A stretch of DNA of 64,000 nucleotides from Paludibacter jiangxiensis (GTDB lineage: Bacteria > Bacteroidota > Bacteroidia > Bacteroidales > Paludibacteraceae). Both the position numbers and the translations under genes were made by a program. Below, piece after piece: positions 126-6,420 of the stretch; positions within the stretch are counted from its first letter, which is position 1; every line of letters starts with the position of its first letter. The DNA is taken from the NCBI RefSeq assembly GCF_001618385.1, contig NZ_BDCR01000001.1, positions 1,240,001-1,304,000 of the forward strand. The letters are read 5' to 3'. The notes below the pieces were generated by a model that saw only the letters and a list, made by a program, of their open reading frames with translations, was not told where the DNA came from and did no database searches.

Positions 126-1262
126 ATGAACAAGTACTTTTTCCCCATCACCCGAAGCAATATTTTCTTGTTTCTTGCCTTGTGGTTAATGCTGGCCTTT
201 CCGCTTGGATTGTATACTTTACTGGTCGGCCCGTCTAAATGGTTGGCGGCGGCAGCTCTGCAACATAACTGGTCGGATTCTCTTTCCAACGGACTTCAGA
301 AAGGAGCCATCCTTCTCTGGATTGTTGTTTCGTTCGTACTGGCCGTGCTAACAATCAGGTTATTCCTGAAGCTTAAAATAATTTCCCGTTCGGTGCTTTT
401 TTCTTTGCTCTTTCTGATTTTTGGTGTCTCCGTCTACTTGTTTGCCTTTCATCCGGAGATCTATATCAAATGGTCGGGTGCAGCTATGGTGAGCGAGAGT
501 CAGAAAACCACAGGAGCTGCCGGCAATGAAATAGAGTTCACTATCGGCTCTTATCCGGATGCTGATAAAATTGTTCAGCTGAAAAAAGAAGGATATACGG
601 CCATTATCACATTGATGAGTGAGTTGGTGGTGCCGGCAGAACCGAAACTGCTGCACGAAGAGGGAGAGCATACCGCTAAAGCGGGCATGCAGTTGATCCA
701 TATCCCCATGTTGCCTTGGGTATCAAACAATGAAAAAGCGTTGGAACAGATTCGTCAACTGGTTAAAACCGGGCATGGTAAATATTATGTACACTGTTAC
801 CTTGGCCGGGATCGGGTCAATGTTTTTAGAAAGATGATTGCCGATAGTGCGCCAAAAATGAAGCTGCAGGCCAATACTTCCACACGCAAAATAGAAGAAT
901 TAACCCGGTTTGAAAGAGGTAACTATTATCGGATTAACGAAAAGATATACCTTACTCCATTTCCAACCGATGATGAGTTTTTGGGATATATTGTGAACGG
1001 CAATTTCAAGTCGGTTGTTTGTCTGTTGGACGAAAATGACCCTGAAGATAAACCATGGGTTGAGCGGGAAAAGAAAATTCTGAAGACATACAACGTCTCC
1101 TTTGTCAACATACCGTACAAGAACGCTGCAGATACTAAAGCTCTCAGGAAACTGATCGATAGCATTCCGCACATCGCATCGCCGATGATAATACATGCAT
1201 TCAAGTCCGACAGTCAGTCTATTGCCCGAATTAAGAAAGAACTGAATAATCTGAAGATATAA
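126..1262 (+). CDS. Membrane protein with active and degenerate tyrosine-phosphatase-like domains
   Basis: A 378-residue protein. Three hydrophobic segments (about residues 13-37, 60-82 and 89-108) anchor it in the inner membrane, and the remainder is probably a soluble domain. Residues about 134-240 form a dual-specificity/tyrosine phosphatase-like domain with the C-x5-R signature (H223, C224, R230). Residues about 266-375 look like a second copy of the same fold (same strand pattern and spacing), but the signature reads HAFKSDSQ, so Cys is Ala358 and Arg is Gln364; this copy should be inactive. The gene is convergent with a polysaccharide operon, so a role in regulating or trimming that system is possible but only inferred. 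No clear promoter is seen in bases 1-125. Confidence 0.75.
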   Translation: MNKYFFPITRSNIFLFLALWLMLAFPLGLYTLLVGPSKWLAAAALQHNWSDSLSNGLQKGAILLWIVVSFVLAVLTIRLFLKLKIISRSVLFSLLFLIFGVSVYLFAFHPEIYIKWSGAAMVSESQKTTGAAGNEIEFTIGSYPDADKIVQLKKEGYTAIITLMSELVVPAEPKLLHEEGEHTAKAGMQLIHIPMLPWVSNNEKALEQIRQLVKTGHGKYYVHCYLGRDRVNVFRKMIADSAPKMKLQANTSTRKIEELTRFERGNYYRINEKIYLTPFPTDDEFLGYIVNGNFKSVVCLLDENDPEDKPWVEREKKILKTYNVSFVNIPYKNAADTKALRKLIDSIPHIASPMIIHAFKSDSQSIARIKKELNNLKI

Positions 1263-1409: not shown

Positions 1410-2816
1410 TTATTGTTTAGAATTGAATCCCTTTCTGGTTTGTTGTCCCCATCCTTTATCTCCTTTAAAGAAAGAAATATTGCCTTTGATGGCAAAAAAC
1501 ACATTCAACGGGTGGTAGATGAGTGGTTCGATAAACGGAATGACAAATAGTTTTCGCAAATGTTCGAACCGATGATACCGATGGAATGTAAACTCATCGA
1601 AAAGTACGGCATAGAAAGAAAACGAAACGGAGAACAGATATACGAATACCAGCATGAATATAAATATCGGCCAATTTATCATGCCCACAGCAATAAGATA
1701 TACAAGAAGTAAATATCCGAAAGCTTCGAGCAACGGAGCCATCCATTCAAAAAAGAACCAGAAAGGATAACCCAACAACCCCATTTTTCCATATTTGGGA
1801 TTAAAGAATAACTTACGGTGCATAAGTAACGTGTCCATATTGCCTCGTGTCCAACGATTACGCTGGCGGGACAGCGCGCTGATGGAAGTAGGAACTTCTG
1901 TCCAGCAAAGCGGATCCGGAATGTATTCAACGCGATGCTTGACTTTTTGTTCGTATAAGAACCGGCGCATGCGTACTACCAGTTCCATATCCTCGCCAAC
2001 AGTATTCACATTATAGCCGCCGCATTGCACCACAATGTCTTTGTCGAACATGCCAAGTGCCCCCGAAACAATGAGCAACCCATTGAGTTTACTCCAGGCC
2101 ATACGTCCCATTAAAAATGCGCGTAGATATTCGATAGCTTGAAAACGTGCAATATATTCGTTTGGTACATTAACCTGAACTACCTGTCCGTTCTCAATTT
2201 TACACGAATTTGCAATGCGGATTACGCCTCCGGTGGCAATGGTTTTGTTATCTGTATGAGAAAGGAATGGCTTGACTAATTTTTGTAATGCGTCGGGAAC
2301 TAAGATGCTGTCCACGTCGATCGCTACAAAATAAGGAAAATGCGATACGTTGATACCGGCATTAAGCGCGTCTGCCTTGCCGCCATTTTGTTTGTCTACC
2401 ACCGTAAGATACGAATAAGCATGGTTTCTGGATTTATAAATACCTCTAACCGGTTGAGTCGGTAATGCGGCATAAGCAATGTATTCAGCTTCCACCAAAT
2501 CAAATTCCCGTATTATTTTATCCAGAGTATCATCGGTGCTTCCATCATTCACCAGTATGATTTCGTAGTTGTTGTACTGGATTGTAAACAACGCTTTTAT
2601 GTTGTCAACAATCGTTTTGCTCTCATTATAAGCGGGAGCTATCACCGTAATTCCGGGAGCAAGAGGCGATGAGAGAATGGCGCTGAAATCGGCATAGCGA
2701 TTTGCTCTTTTATATTCAATCAACTGAAACATCGAAATAATTCCCAGAAAAAGATAAATTGCCATGATTAGTGCGGCAATTATCAGGAATAGATTATTGA
2801 AAAAAATATCAGCCAT
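1410..2816 (-). CDS. Membrane-bound family 2 glycosyltransferase (processive polysaccharide synthase type)
   Basis: A 468-residue inner-membrane glycosyltransferase of the BcsA/PgaC/YaiP type. One N-terminal membrane segment (about 7-30) precedes a GT-A domain with DGS (91-93), DVD (167-169), the catalytic GED (274-276) and the QRNRW processivity motif (318-322). Several membrane segments follow (about 340-440). No PilZ domain is present, so direct cyclic-di-GMP control through PilZ is not expected. It is the last gene of a four-gene operon, 30 bases after the HEAT-repeat gene. By family knowledge it would polymerise a beta-linked sugar and export it through the membrane; the sugar cannot be predicted. 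Confidence 0.85.
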   Translation of the reverse strand: MADIFFNNLFLIIAALIMAIYLFLGIISMFQLIEYKRANRYADFSAILSSPLAPGITVIAPAYNESKTIVDNIKALFTIQYNNYEIILVNDGSTDDTLDKIIREFDLVEAEYIAYAALPTQPVRGIYKSRNHAYSYLTVVDKQNGGKADALNAGINVSHFPYFVAIDVDSILVPDALQKLVKPFLSHTDNKTIATGGVIRIANSCKIENGQVVQVNVPNEYIARFQAIEYLRAFLMGRMAWSKLNGLLIVSGALGMFDKDIVVQCGGYNVNTVGEDMELVVRMRRFLYEQKVKHRVEYIPDPLCWTEVPTSISALSRQRNRWTRGNMDTLLMHRKLFFNPKYGKMGLLGYPFWFFFEWMAPLLEAFGYLLLVYLIAVGMINWPIFIFMLVFVYLFSVSFSFYAVLFDEFTFHRYHRFEHLRKLFVIPFIEPLIYHPLNVFFAIKGNISFFKGDKGWGQQTRKGFNSKQ

Positions 2817-2846
2817 ATGTTTAAGTTTTTGTTGTTGTAATCAATC

Positions 2847-4031
2847 TTATTTTTGTTCAATTTGCTCAGGTTCCATGTCTTTTAAGAGCATGGCTTGCAG
2901 TCCGGGAGAAACATGTTTCAGAATCTCAGCCTGCAATCGTCGGGGTGTATCCTGCCAGATGTTTCGGTAGAATTCAAATGTCTCCTGAGGCTTATCCAGA
3001 GAAAGTGCCTGTATCATGCCAACCTGAACGCGAAGTGTCTCTCCGAGAAAATTCTGTTTTACCACGGGGATAGCCTCATAAATATCCAGGTCACGCACAA
3101 CCCGTAAGGCATTTCTACGTACTACCGGATCGTGATGTGTCACCAACTGGATAATCTCTTCTTTTGAACCCTTTTGAGAAAAAAGCCGAATCATATTGAG
3201 TGCAAAGATGATGACCGAAGCATTCTCCGAATGAAGAAAGCTATAAAAGTCGGGTAGGGGCAAAGAGCTTCTCACCATTGTCTTATGCAGTAAAATCTGA
3301 TGCCATATCGGCAATGATTGATCAATAATATTGAGGAATGCAAATGCTTGGCCGGTATCGAGATTTACACAGGCCATTTGCGCGACATTTCTTAGGTGAG
3401 GATTTCCTGCATATTGATACGGCTGAATCAGTTCAAATGCAGCATAAACCTGCATCCATTGTGCAGCGTCAATGTACAATACCTTGTTGAACCATCGTGC
3501 ACTATTGATTTTATGTACCACAAATGTATCAAGACCTAACTGGTAAAACAAATGTTGCAGGTTCTCGGTCTTCGGTCCGGTGATTTGTTTGCGCAAACTG
3601 ATTATCTCCTCAACAAGCGTTTGTTTCTTGAGTTGTTTCATTTGCTCTAAAGCAGATTCACTATTTCCATAAAGGTATTCTATGATGGATGCCTGTACCT
3701 TTTCTCTAATAAGATTTTTGCGGTGCCAAAATCTGATGGAACCCCATCTTCGGAGTAAGATGAACAAAGCGATTGTGGCTATATTCACCGCCGTAAGGAT
3801 AAGGGCTGTGAATAGAATTGGAAATAACCAAGCAAGCAGGACGCTTTGATGTTGACTTGTTTCAATTGTAGTCATTAAGTAACGTCCCAGATCATGAAGC
3901 CAGTCAAATGCGTTATTTCCTTCCAAAAACCAGGTTTCATGCATTAGCCAACTTTTCACAATGGAGGAGAAAGCTAGCAGTAGAATCATAGCCGTTATAA
4001 ATACGGCCACAGCTTTATATTTTCGTAACAT
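2847..4031 (-). CDS. Membrane-anchored HEAT-repeat-like protein of the polysaccharide operon
   Basis: A 394-residue protein with two N-terminal membrane segments (about residues 8-28 and 66-94) and a long helical region. The C-terminal half has HEAT-like helical pairs (for example around 265-350, with the pattern DPVVRRNALRVV). Such modules bind proteins, so it may be an assembly or control subunit linking the synthase to the receiver protein. Its start overlaps the end of the receiver gene by 17 bases, which suggests translational coupling. No enzymatic motif is seen. HEAT-repeat proteins beside GT2 synthases and YaiO-type barrels occur in other bacteria, but no function is established for this one. 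Confidence 0.65.
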   Translation of the reverse strand: MLRKYKAVAVFITAMILLLAFSSIVKSWLMHETWFLEGNNAFDWLHDLGRYLMTTIETSQHQSVLLAWLFPILFTALILTAVNIATIALFILLRRWGSIRFWHRKNLIREKVQASIIEYLYGNSESALEQMKQLKKQTLVEEIISLRKQITGPKTENLQHLFYQLGLDTFVVHKINSARWFNKVLYIDAAQWMQVYAAFELIQPYQYAGNPHLRNVAQMACVNLDTGQAFAFLNIIDQSLPIWHQILLHKTMVRSSLPLPDFYSFLHSENASVIIFALNMIRLFSQKGSKEEIIQLVTHHDPVVRRNALRVVRDLDIYEAIPVVKQNFLGETLRVQVGMIQALSLDKPQETFEFYRNIWQDTPRRLQAEILKHVSPGLQAMLLKDMEPEQIEQK

Positions 4032-4419
4032 AGTCTATAGCATTTGAAATGAATGAATTTTTCTTTCCTTGTATTGCCTTTTGTATGTGAATATTTAGAT
4101 GAGTCGGATCAAAAGGCTTTGAAATAAACTCATCGGCACCAAGTCTGAATATGAGTTCTATTAATCGATTGGAGCTCAATGAACTTATTACTACAATCAT
4201 CATCTTGGGAAATTGTAGCCGGGCATTGTGAATGAATTCGAACCCGTTCATATGCGGCAATAATACCTCCGTGATTAAAATATCAGGAGCAAACGACGTC
4301 AATTGGCTTGTCATCTTTTCTCCCACCCAGGCGAGGCGAACCTCATTCTGTTCGGCCATCAGTTCTTTTCCCATGAGTTGCATTAATAATGGGTTGCTTT
4401 CACATATAAGTATTTTCAT
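4015..4419 (-). CDS. Stand-alone atypical response-regulator receiver lacking the phospho-acceptor Asp
   Basis: A 134-residue single-domain receiver with no output domain. The fold pattern is clear: ILICESNPLL at the first strand, ITEVLLPHMNG at the phosphorylation loop, ISS at the Ser/Thr switch and FISKPFD with the conserved Lys101. The acidic pair is E7/S8, and the phospho-acceptor position is Glu51 (codon GAG) instead of Asp. It therefore probably cannot be phosphorylated normally and may act as a fixed-state protein-interaction module. I chose the ATG at 4419 rather than the longer frame reaching 4485, because the longer one runs into the end of the upstream gene and adds 22 residues before the conserved first strand. 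Confidence 0.8.
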   Translation of the reverse strand: MKILICESNPLLMQLMGKELMAEQNEVRLAWVGEKMTSQLTSFAPDILITEVLLPHMNGFEFIHNARLQFPKMMIVVISSLSSNRLIELIFRLGADEFISKPFDPTHLNIHIQKAIQGKKNSFISNAIDYVTKI

Positions 4420-4444
4420 AATGTTGCATTTTAGGCTTTTCAAA

Positions 4445-5701
4445 TCAGAATTGATAAGAACAAATAATTTCACCGGAGAATACATTGCGATAGCGTTTGC
4501 TCATCCACTCGGTATTGCTGTAGGTAAATGCTCCGCTAATGGTAAATGCAGGCCAGAGTTGCTTGCTATACTCAAGTCGGAATCCGGATGACTTAAGAGA
4601 AGGAGTAACTGTGGTCAGGACATTCGTCCTTTCATCGGGCGAAACTCCATAATTTACTCTTACACCCCAGTAATCGTCTCTGGAAGCAAAATAGTAACGG
4701 GTTTGCAGCAACGCAGTAAGGGAAGTGCTTCCGTTTAGTTTGAAGTAAGTTCGCCCAGACCACCACCAATTGCCTGAATATTTGCCCAGATAGGCAGTGT
4801 AAATCATGGCGTCGGTGGTTTTATAGTCGAGATAACGAAAGCCCACAGAGGCTTCGAACGCTGACGGTAATTTCTGATAAAACTCCCCACCCAGTCGGAA
4901 ACGTGGAAATATGGATTGATTAGAGTATCCGATATTCAGGTATCCATAATTCCAATTGCTGATTTTCAGATACGCATCCGCTTCACCCTGAACTCCTTCG
5001 ATCCCGAATCTTTTTGCATAGTTAAATCTTCCGACTAATGTTCCTATCGGAATTTTCCGGCTATATTGTAAATAGATTGTTTTCCACGGCTCTAAAGCGC
5101 GACTCTGAAAATAGTCGGACGAATAACTGAAACTCAGGCGGTTCTTTTTTAGTTGATCCTGCAATGATTTCAACAACTTGAGGCCATCTGCATTTTGAGG
5201 ATCAATATACAACAGCGTGTTCAGTGTTTCGTTTGCCATTTCAGGTTTTTTCAAACCGTCGTAGGCTCTGGCTTTCTTCAGTAAAAGGGCTTTGTTGTCA
5301 TGAAAATAAGTAAGGGCAGCATCACAATCGCGAAGACAGGAAGCGTAATTGCCTTGCCAGAGGGAAAGGTCGGTTTTGACATCCCACGCATCGAAGCTTT
5401 TCGGATTTGTTTCAATGACAGTATTGATGTTGGATTCAGCCAAATCATATTTTTTGTCCCATAAATAAATGCGGGACAACAAAATGTGGGCATCCTGATA
5501 ACCGGGGTTATTTGTAAGGATCCGTTCGCAGGTAACAATTGCACCTGTTCTGTCTCCTGAATTGGCTGCCTGACGGGCTGCTATAAATAGAGAATCAGCG
5601 TTAATTCGCTGTGCTTCAACTGTGATTGAGGACTCTAGTGTATGAAATATGAGGCATAACAATAAAGTCAAAATTCCAGATTTTGATATAGAACAATGCA
5701 T
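4445..5701 (-). CDS. TPR and outer-membrane beta-barrel protein, YaiO-like
   Basis: A 418-residue protein. An N-terminal hydrophobic segment (about 10-25) looks like a signal peptide. TPR-like helical repeats follow (about 36-175, for example the LLSRIYLWDKKYDLAESN pattern), then an aromatic-rich beta-strand region (about 190-418) ending in Phe, as outer-membrane barrels do. This two-part plan matches the YaiO family and resembles the periplasm-spanning TPR plus export barrel used by polysaccharide secretion systems. It is the first gene of the operon with the receiver, HEAT and GT2 genes, 25 bases before the receiver. Likely role: periplasmic passage and outer-membrane export of the glycan; the substrate is unknown. 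Confidence 0.75.
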   Translation of the reverse strand: MHCSISKSGILTLLLCLIFHTLESSITVEAQRINADSLFIAARQAANSGDRTGAIVTCERILTNNPGYQDAHILLSRIYLWDKKYDLAESNINTVIETNPKSFDAWDVKTDLSLWQGNYASCLRDCDAALTYFHDNKALLLKKARAYDGLKKPEMANETLNTLLYIDPQNADGLKLLKSLQDQLKKNRLSFSYSSDYFQSRALEPWKTIYLQYSRKIPIGTLVGRFNYAKRFGIEGVQGEADAYLKISNWNYGYLNIGYSNQSIFPRFRLGGEFYQKLPSAFEASVGFRYLDYKTTDAMIYTAYLGKYSGNWWWSGRTYFKLNGSTSLTALLQTRYYFASRDDYWGVRVNYGVSPDERTNVLTTVTPSLKSSGFRLEYSKQLWPAFTISGAFTYSNTEWMSKRYRNVFSGEIICSYQF

Positions 5702-5828: not shown

Positions 5829-5973
5829 CATTTACACTAAAAAAATTAATGAAAACAATTTGGCCATATATCAGGGGAAAGGCATCTTGAGATGCTATAC
5901 GGTTTGTCTTTGGTATGATTTTTAGCGCCTGCTTGCGGTTATTCTGAATTGACTAATAATAAATTATTTGCAC

Positions 5974-6420
5974 ATGAACCCAAAGGAATTTCAAACAATC
6001 AGAGAAGCTCTTGCATATTGCATTGATCAGGAGCATTTAAGTTATCAACAATATAGTCGGAATGCCAAAAGGACCCTGAATCTTCATCAGAAGAGTATAT
6101 GGGAACAACTTGCCAACGATGAATTGCGGCACAAGGCATTATTGTCCTCACTTTTGGAAAATCATCAATTCCTTTCCATGTCGTTTACTCCCGAGGCCAA
6201 CCCGGGAAATCTCGATTTTCTTCAGATAGAAAAACCGGTTAATCCTGTAAAAGAAATATTTATGAAAGCAATTAATGCTGAAATTGAAGCGTATTATGGA
6301 TATCGTGATATTGCGCAACAATCTTCAGAAACTGAGATGAAGAATCTTTTTCATCTTTTATCTCAGGAAGAGTTGGTTCATAAACAAGCTTTAGAAGAAG
6401 AGCTGGCAACTCTTGGATAG
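5974..6420 (+). CDS. Ferritin-like / rubrerythrin-type diiron protein
   Basis: A 148-residue four-helix protein. Two helix pairs each carry a Glu followed by an ExxH motif: E in CIDQEHLSY, then NDELRHKAL; E in NAEIEAYYGY, then SQEELVHKQ. These are the ligands of a ferritin-like diiron centre. It lacks the rubredoxin-type Cys motifs of full rubrerythrin. By family it would reduce peroxide or bind iron in the cytoplasm. The ATG at 5974 is preferred over a TTG two codons upstream. It stands alone, divergent from the polysaccharide operon. Confidence 0.8.
   Translation: MNPKEFQTIREALAYCIDQEHLSYQQYSRNAKRTLNLHQKSIWEQLANDELRHKALLSSLLENHQFLSMSFTPEANPGNLDFLQIEKPVNPVKEIFMKAINAEIEAYYGYRDIAQQSSETEMKNLFHLLSQEELVHKQALEEELATLG

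Follow-up and report, generated by a model that had tools for sequence, protein, structure and literature searches.

Several described bacterial systems resemble a four-gene locus at positions 1410-5701 of the window analysed here, a 64,000-nucleotide stretch of the Paludibacter jiangxiensis genome. The locus encodes a YaiO-type outer-membrane protein, a single-domain receiver, a putatively membrane-anchored HEAT protein and a family 2 glycosyltransferase (GT2). The NfrB-NfrA-YbcH system of E. coli, for which an N-acetylmannosamine (ManNAc) polymer has been proposed, likewise combines an inner-membrane processive GT2 (DxD/TED/QxxRW), an outer-membrane tetratricopeptide repeat (TPR) protein with a C-terminal pore region and an accessory anchored protein, with no deacetylase or hydrolase, but it has no receiver, HEAT protein or LtaS-like partner (PMC8669469). 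NfrBA-YbcH is the closest architecture, with a different control. PgaABCD contains the nearest curated GT2 family and also uses a TPR and barrel exporter, whereas the window locus lacks PgaB and PgaD. In the E. coli yaiO-yaiX-yaiP-yaiS cluster a YaiO barrel also lies near a GT2, but this YaiO has 257 amino acids, which leaves no room for TPRs, it is accompanied by an acyltransferase and a deacetylase, and there is neither a receiver nor a HEAT protein; we know of no function assigned to this cluster. The phosphoethanolamine cellulose system, BcsA-BcsC-BcsG, shares the GT2 synthase and the TPR-barrel exporter (best fold match, 9b8a), and the role of BcsG for cellulose is paralleled by a sulfatase-superfamily phosphotransferase found in relatives of the locus; unlike that system, the window locus has no BcsB or BcsZ nearby, no PilZ domain, and 14 rather than 16 predicted strands. 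In Myxococcus, the single-domain receiver EpsW controls a glycan enzyme post-translationally, phosphorylated EpsW stimulating EpsZ directly, but this occurs in a Wzx/Wzy pathway, on a phosphoglycosyl transferase, and with no HEAT adaptor (PMC12802240).

The window locus is one lineage's version of a Bacteroidota-wide module composed of a receiver, a TPR/YaiO barrel, a HEAT protein and a GT2. We favour, with a probability of about 0.65, the reading that it is a synthase-dependent surface-glycan secretion system which the receiver gates via the HEAT protein in most relatives, and whose switch is altered in the window. A preliminary examination of the letters (the sequence-only reading) had proposed a polysaccharide synthase/export operon of an uncharacterised kind, and our search of the literature, covering open-licence papers only, agrees with it in that no description of the locus or its product was found. 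To this we add that: i) the module is phylum-wide and no local oddity, about one quarter of the sampled Bacteroidota genera carrying the GT2 synthase, and ii) the window copy lacks partners common in relatives (a kinase, an LtaS/OpgB-like phosphotransferase and a second YaiO).

The locus encodes a predicted processive synthase and a candidate exporter

The region is filled by four minus-strand genes, in the order YaiO, receiver, HEAT, GT2:

5701-4445, minus strand: YaiO-type outer-membrane protein, 418 amino acids; signal peptide, about five TPRs (35-184) and a predicted 14-stranded barrel (187-417)
4419-4015, minus strand: single-domain receiver, 134 amino acids; PF00072, 2.3e-17
4031-2847, minus strand: HEAT protein, probably membrane-anchored, 394 amino acids; HEAT_2 match below threshold
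2816-1410, minus strand: predicted GT2 synthase, 468 amino acids; PF13641, 1.8e-21

The spacing is as in one operon: 25 nt separate the YaiO and receiver genes, the receiver and HEAT genes overlap by 17 nt, and 30 nt lie between the HEAT and GT2 genes. The receiver start listed at 4485 is probably too early, and 4419 was taken instead. YaiO, receiver and GT2 are named securely by Pfam and the HEAT protein weakly. The four-gene operon and the gene order of the sequence-only reading are borne out by the common strand, the short spacing and these assignments. Upstream of the operon no match to the Bacteroidota promoter pattern, whose count was near chance, was observed. Relative to a sister species (L053), whose proteins are 85-92% identical, the ratio of nonsynonymous to synonymous substitutions (dN/dS) was 0.08-0.12 for all four genes, the YaiO value covering 295 codons only (the L053 YaiO is frameshifted, perhaps by an assembly error) and the dS behind the GT2 value being saturated at 1.3. 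All four are thus genuine, intact genes maintained by purifying selection.

The GT2 carries all the processive motifs (NDGS, DVD, GED and QRNRW), hydrophobic N- and C-terminal segments and no PilZ domain, and residues D91, D167, D169, E275, D276, Q318, R319, R321 and W322 are invariant in 101 sequences. It is predicted to be an inner-membrane processive synthase. The best NCBIfam model is PgaC/IcaA (139 bits; cut-off, 422), and the CelA model scores 32 bits (cut-off, 699). When the E. coli GT2s were tested against the GT2 family profile, PgaC was the best and BcsA was weak (20 bits). Because PgaC/IcaA is the nearest curated model, an N-acetylhexosamine is the weak favourite as substrate. The fpgA product of Flavobacterium psychrophilum was considered as the same GT2 and rejected, since it is a 319-amino acid enzyme encoded beside FP1637 (PMC4293000).

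YaiO, the only one in the window genome, matches PF19413 (5.5e-61) and TPR families, and its AlphaFold2 model has a predicted local distance difference test score (pLDDT) of 91.9. A Foldseek search of 350,542 PDB chains returned E. coli BcsC (9b8a and 9b8h) at the top, followed by PelBC (9h80), a likeness that supports an export role and is not proof of it. We propose that YaiO is the glycan exporter. The GT2 motifs and the YaiO TPR-barrel together argue for synthase-dependent secretion of a glycan, by a system whose parts had been listed in the sequence-only reading.

The HEAT protein model (pLDDT 88.6) shows long N-terminal helices at 2-31 and 63-121, which may be read as two membrane spans, followed by a long solenoid of HEAT/ARM-like repeats that presumably is cytoplasmic. 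The structures matched by Foldseek were mostly generic armadillo, alphaRep and importin proteins. We propose that it serves as an adaptor between receiver and synthase. The HEAT protein reaches 800-1030 amino acids in several marine Flavobacteriaceae (L112, L116, L117, L125 and L127), with a long acidic insert in L112, and in four loci (L034, L035, L043 and L069) the HEAT gene is immediately preceded by a gene for a CotH-like kinase.

The module recurs across Bacteroidota

Of 149 genomes of the class searched with the HEAT protein alone, 23 gave matches, among them that of the window, and each match had a close relative of the window GT2 next to it. When public species genomes were scanned with the GT2 family, at least 579 relatives were returned. 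The best 80 of these, all labelled Bacteroidota save one short contig (Armatimonadetes), and 20 further genomes yielded 98 loci with a GT2, one duplicate being removed. In the gene-order comparison that the sequence-only reading had suggested, the HEAT gene was directly upstream of the GT2 gene, on the same strand, in 95 of the 97 loci having an upstream gene, and in 48/50 once the GT2s had been thinned at 70% identity; one of the exceptions, L044, has it adjacent but divergent. The gene order thus recurs far beyond chance. Of the genomes sampled in the phylum, 83 of 395 (46 of 171 genera) had the GT2 at a threshold of E<=1e-90. It is absent from both sampled genomes of the same family and from most of the order, and its distribution is therefore patchy.

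Partner genes were counted in the 82 loci with full flanks. A receiver was present within four genes upstream, on the same strand, in 72, and a kinase within six genes in 35. YaiO was upstream in 42 and downstream in 35, so a barrel lies near the synthase in 77. The receiver may precede or follow YaiO, a looser position than that of HEAT and GT2. Short "REC" matches without the D site (L051, L057, L089, L090 and L112) appeared by eye to be Hpt-like domains rather than receivers, and were left out of the receiver counts.

A sulfatase-superfamily membrane protein is encoded near 29 of these loci; it is present in 26 of the 35 with YaiO downstream versus 2 of the 42 with YaiO upstream. Its best named models include LtaS (lipoteichoic acid synthase) and the OpgB-type phosphoglycerol transferase, none of which comes near its cut-off. 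The position that we take to be the nucleophile is T in 32 sequences and S in 5, which, from general knowledge of the superfamily, presumably fits a phosphotransferase better than a sulfatase. The partner would then be an LtaS/OpgB-like phosphotransferase. Nine loci encode it as a fusion with the GT2 and one (L044) as a fusion with the HEAT protein, which links the parts. Apparent second "GT2" matches at the loci proved, with cleaner profiles and Pfam, to be sulfatase-superfamily proteins, the first profile having contained GT2-phosphotransferase fusions. In the sister species the phosphotransferase and a second YaiO directly follow the GT2; the window locus lacks both, as well as the kinase. 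No close homologue of the phosphotransferase was found in the window genome, and a sulfatase-family protein encoded there (L133, 29% identity), which lacks many family-invariant residues, is not a clear replacement.

The window receiver is altered at the phosphorylation site

The receiver had been called atypical, and indeed it has E in the position of the phosphoacceptor D and S in that of one acidic-pocket D, so that the conserved aspartate of phospho-accepting response regulators is missing. Both changes are common to the window and the sister species; all other genuine receivers of the family have the phosphoacceptor D, save one (L093), which has N. The dN/dS of 0.12 shows purifying selection, and the altered receiver is therefore retained, presumably to be used without phosphorylation at that site.

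As the sequence-only reading had held for the operon, no cyclic di-GMP (c-di-GMP) domain was observed: neither GGDEF nor PilZ gave a match in the 99.6% complete window genome, in a search whose controls were positive and which did not cover MshEN. Hence, the usual control by c-di-GMP is unlikely for this synthase. The recurring receiver and HEAT genes suggest instead phosphorelay gating through a HEAT adaptor, which would involve a contact between receiver and HEAT protein. EpsW and EpsZ provide a precedent for a receiver that has a glycan enzyme as its direct target (PMC12802240).

Proposed mechanism and alternatives

In the mechanism that we propose, the GT2 would polymerise a nucleotide sugar and translocate the chain across the inner membrane, the YaiO TPR domain would take it up in the periplasm, and the 14-strand barrel would export it. 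The HEAT solenoid, at the inner membrane beside the synthase, would be its constant partner. In most relatives the single-domain receiver, often with an adjacent hybrid kinase, would act post-translationally on the HEAT/synthase complex and do the job held by c-di-GMP in other systems. In many, the chain would receive a phospho-group, either phosphoglycerol or phosphoethanolamine, from an LtaS/OpgB-like enzyme. The D-to-E change in the window may have made of this switch a subunit that is fixed or in some other way independent of phosphorylation. The bolder form of this proposal remains tentative: a phylum-wide machine in which a phosphorelay via the HEAT adaptor directly switches the synthase instead of c-di-GMP, the polymer is phospho-decorated by a synthase-linked LtaS-like enzyme, and D-to-E has frozen the window switch. 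If true, it would explain how a surface polysaccharide is switched on and off in bacteria without c-di-GMP, and would point to the genes responsible. Two natural experiments, the D-to-E receiver and the synthase-phosphotransferase fusions, render the control and the chemistry open to testing.

Several points weigh against the secretion system with a gating receiver. YaiO has modest TM-scores to BcsC and PelBC (0.38-0.49), and both the TPR and the barrel fold are widespread. The predicted strand count is 14, compared with 16-18 in described synthase barrels (PMC9601211). E. coli YaiO gave no match to the YaiO family profile, and the link to it is via Pfam only. A kinase is near fewer than half of the loci. 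What is shown comprises the gene set, its conservation, the motifs, the predicted folds, the receiver substitution and the absence of GGDEF and PilZ matches; the identity of the polymer, its export, the contact of the receiver with HEAT protein and synthase, and the chemistry of the phosphotransferase are inferred.

The low kinase count, the loose place of the receiver, and the retention in the window of a receiver without the usual phosphorylation site would also fit the same synthase and exporter without receiver/kinase gating. The receiver would then be co-transcribed and act elsewhere, and the HEAT protein would have a structural part in assembly, a role conceivable for PgaD or YbcH too. 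We consider this unlikely, though it is the strongest alternative, since the receiver lies just upstream on the same strand in 72 of the 82 loci, and no c-di-GMP machinery was detected in the organism to do the gating. An oligosaccharide product is less probable still: here the GT2 would make not a long secreted polymer but a glycolipid head group or a short oligosaccharide derived from the membrane, to which the LtaS/OpgB-like partner adds phosphoglycerol, as in osmoregulated periplasmic glucans. The best models of the partner and its nine fusions to the synthase are in its favour, but a periplasmic glucan would not need the YaiO barrel that accompanies nearly all loci, and the processive QxxRW motif is invariant.

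It is equally improbable that the locus is a divergent poly-N-acetylglucosamine (PNAG; Pga-like) system with its deacetylase and hydrolase elsewhere in the genome. PgaC is the best match for the GT2 both among NCBIfam models and among the E. coli enzymes tested, and nine deacetylase-type matches (PF01522) occur elsewhere in the genome; however, the GT2 falls far below the PgaC cut-off, YaiO scores 14 bits on the PgaA model against a cut-off of 367, and no deacetylase was found among the recurrent module neighbours examined. The PgaB deacetylase/hydrolase and PgaD are absent from the locus and its flanks. As to cellulose, the synthase is not of the BcsA type with PilZ, and BcsB is absent from the flanking genes, the rest of the genome not having been searched for it. 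The synthase is a GT2 and not of the PelF type, and there are no Pel genes in the flanks, where that search was confined. Membership in the PNAG, cellulose and Pel systems was thus rejected on scores and missing partners, and the separation from them made in the sequence-only reading stands.

Neighbouring genes and additional observations

The genes flanking the operon on both sides have other functions. One flank carries a phosphatase-like gene, an aminotransferase and a SusCD locus, with a GH2 enzyme ~10 kb off, beyond SusCD; the other carries a rubrerythrin-like gene, a UvrD-like helicase and the str operon. The direct flanks contain no deacetylase, no hydrolase for this glycan (two absences noted in the sequence-only reading) and no c-di-GMP gene. 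The phosphatase-like gene (126-1262, plus strand), downstream of the GT2, encodes a membrane protein with a weak dual-specificity-phosphatase-like region. It sits where the sister species carries the phosphotransferase and second YaiO, and one homologue of its product is encoded near the same module in Lutibacter (L107). The rubrerythrin/ferritin-like gene (5968-6420, plus strand) is divergent from the operon and has the same place in the sister species.

A family of ~395 amino acids with an N-terminal hydrophobic segment lies beside the module in 20 loci (e.g., L075:11500-12684); it has no Pfam or NCBIfam match, and no member was found in the window genome. In 14 loci a large secreted protein is encoded, in which Pfam shows only Ig-like and sorting domains (members tested), so an initial glycoside hydrolase label was dropped. 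Elsewhere in the window genome (L162:4385-7762; G000:C1, ~544-548 kb), a 1125-amino acid protein joins GH18, polysaccharide deacetylase and GT2 domains; an acyltransferase-3 gene is nearby, and this may be a separate chitin- or PNAG-like synthase.
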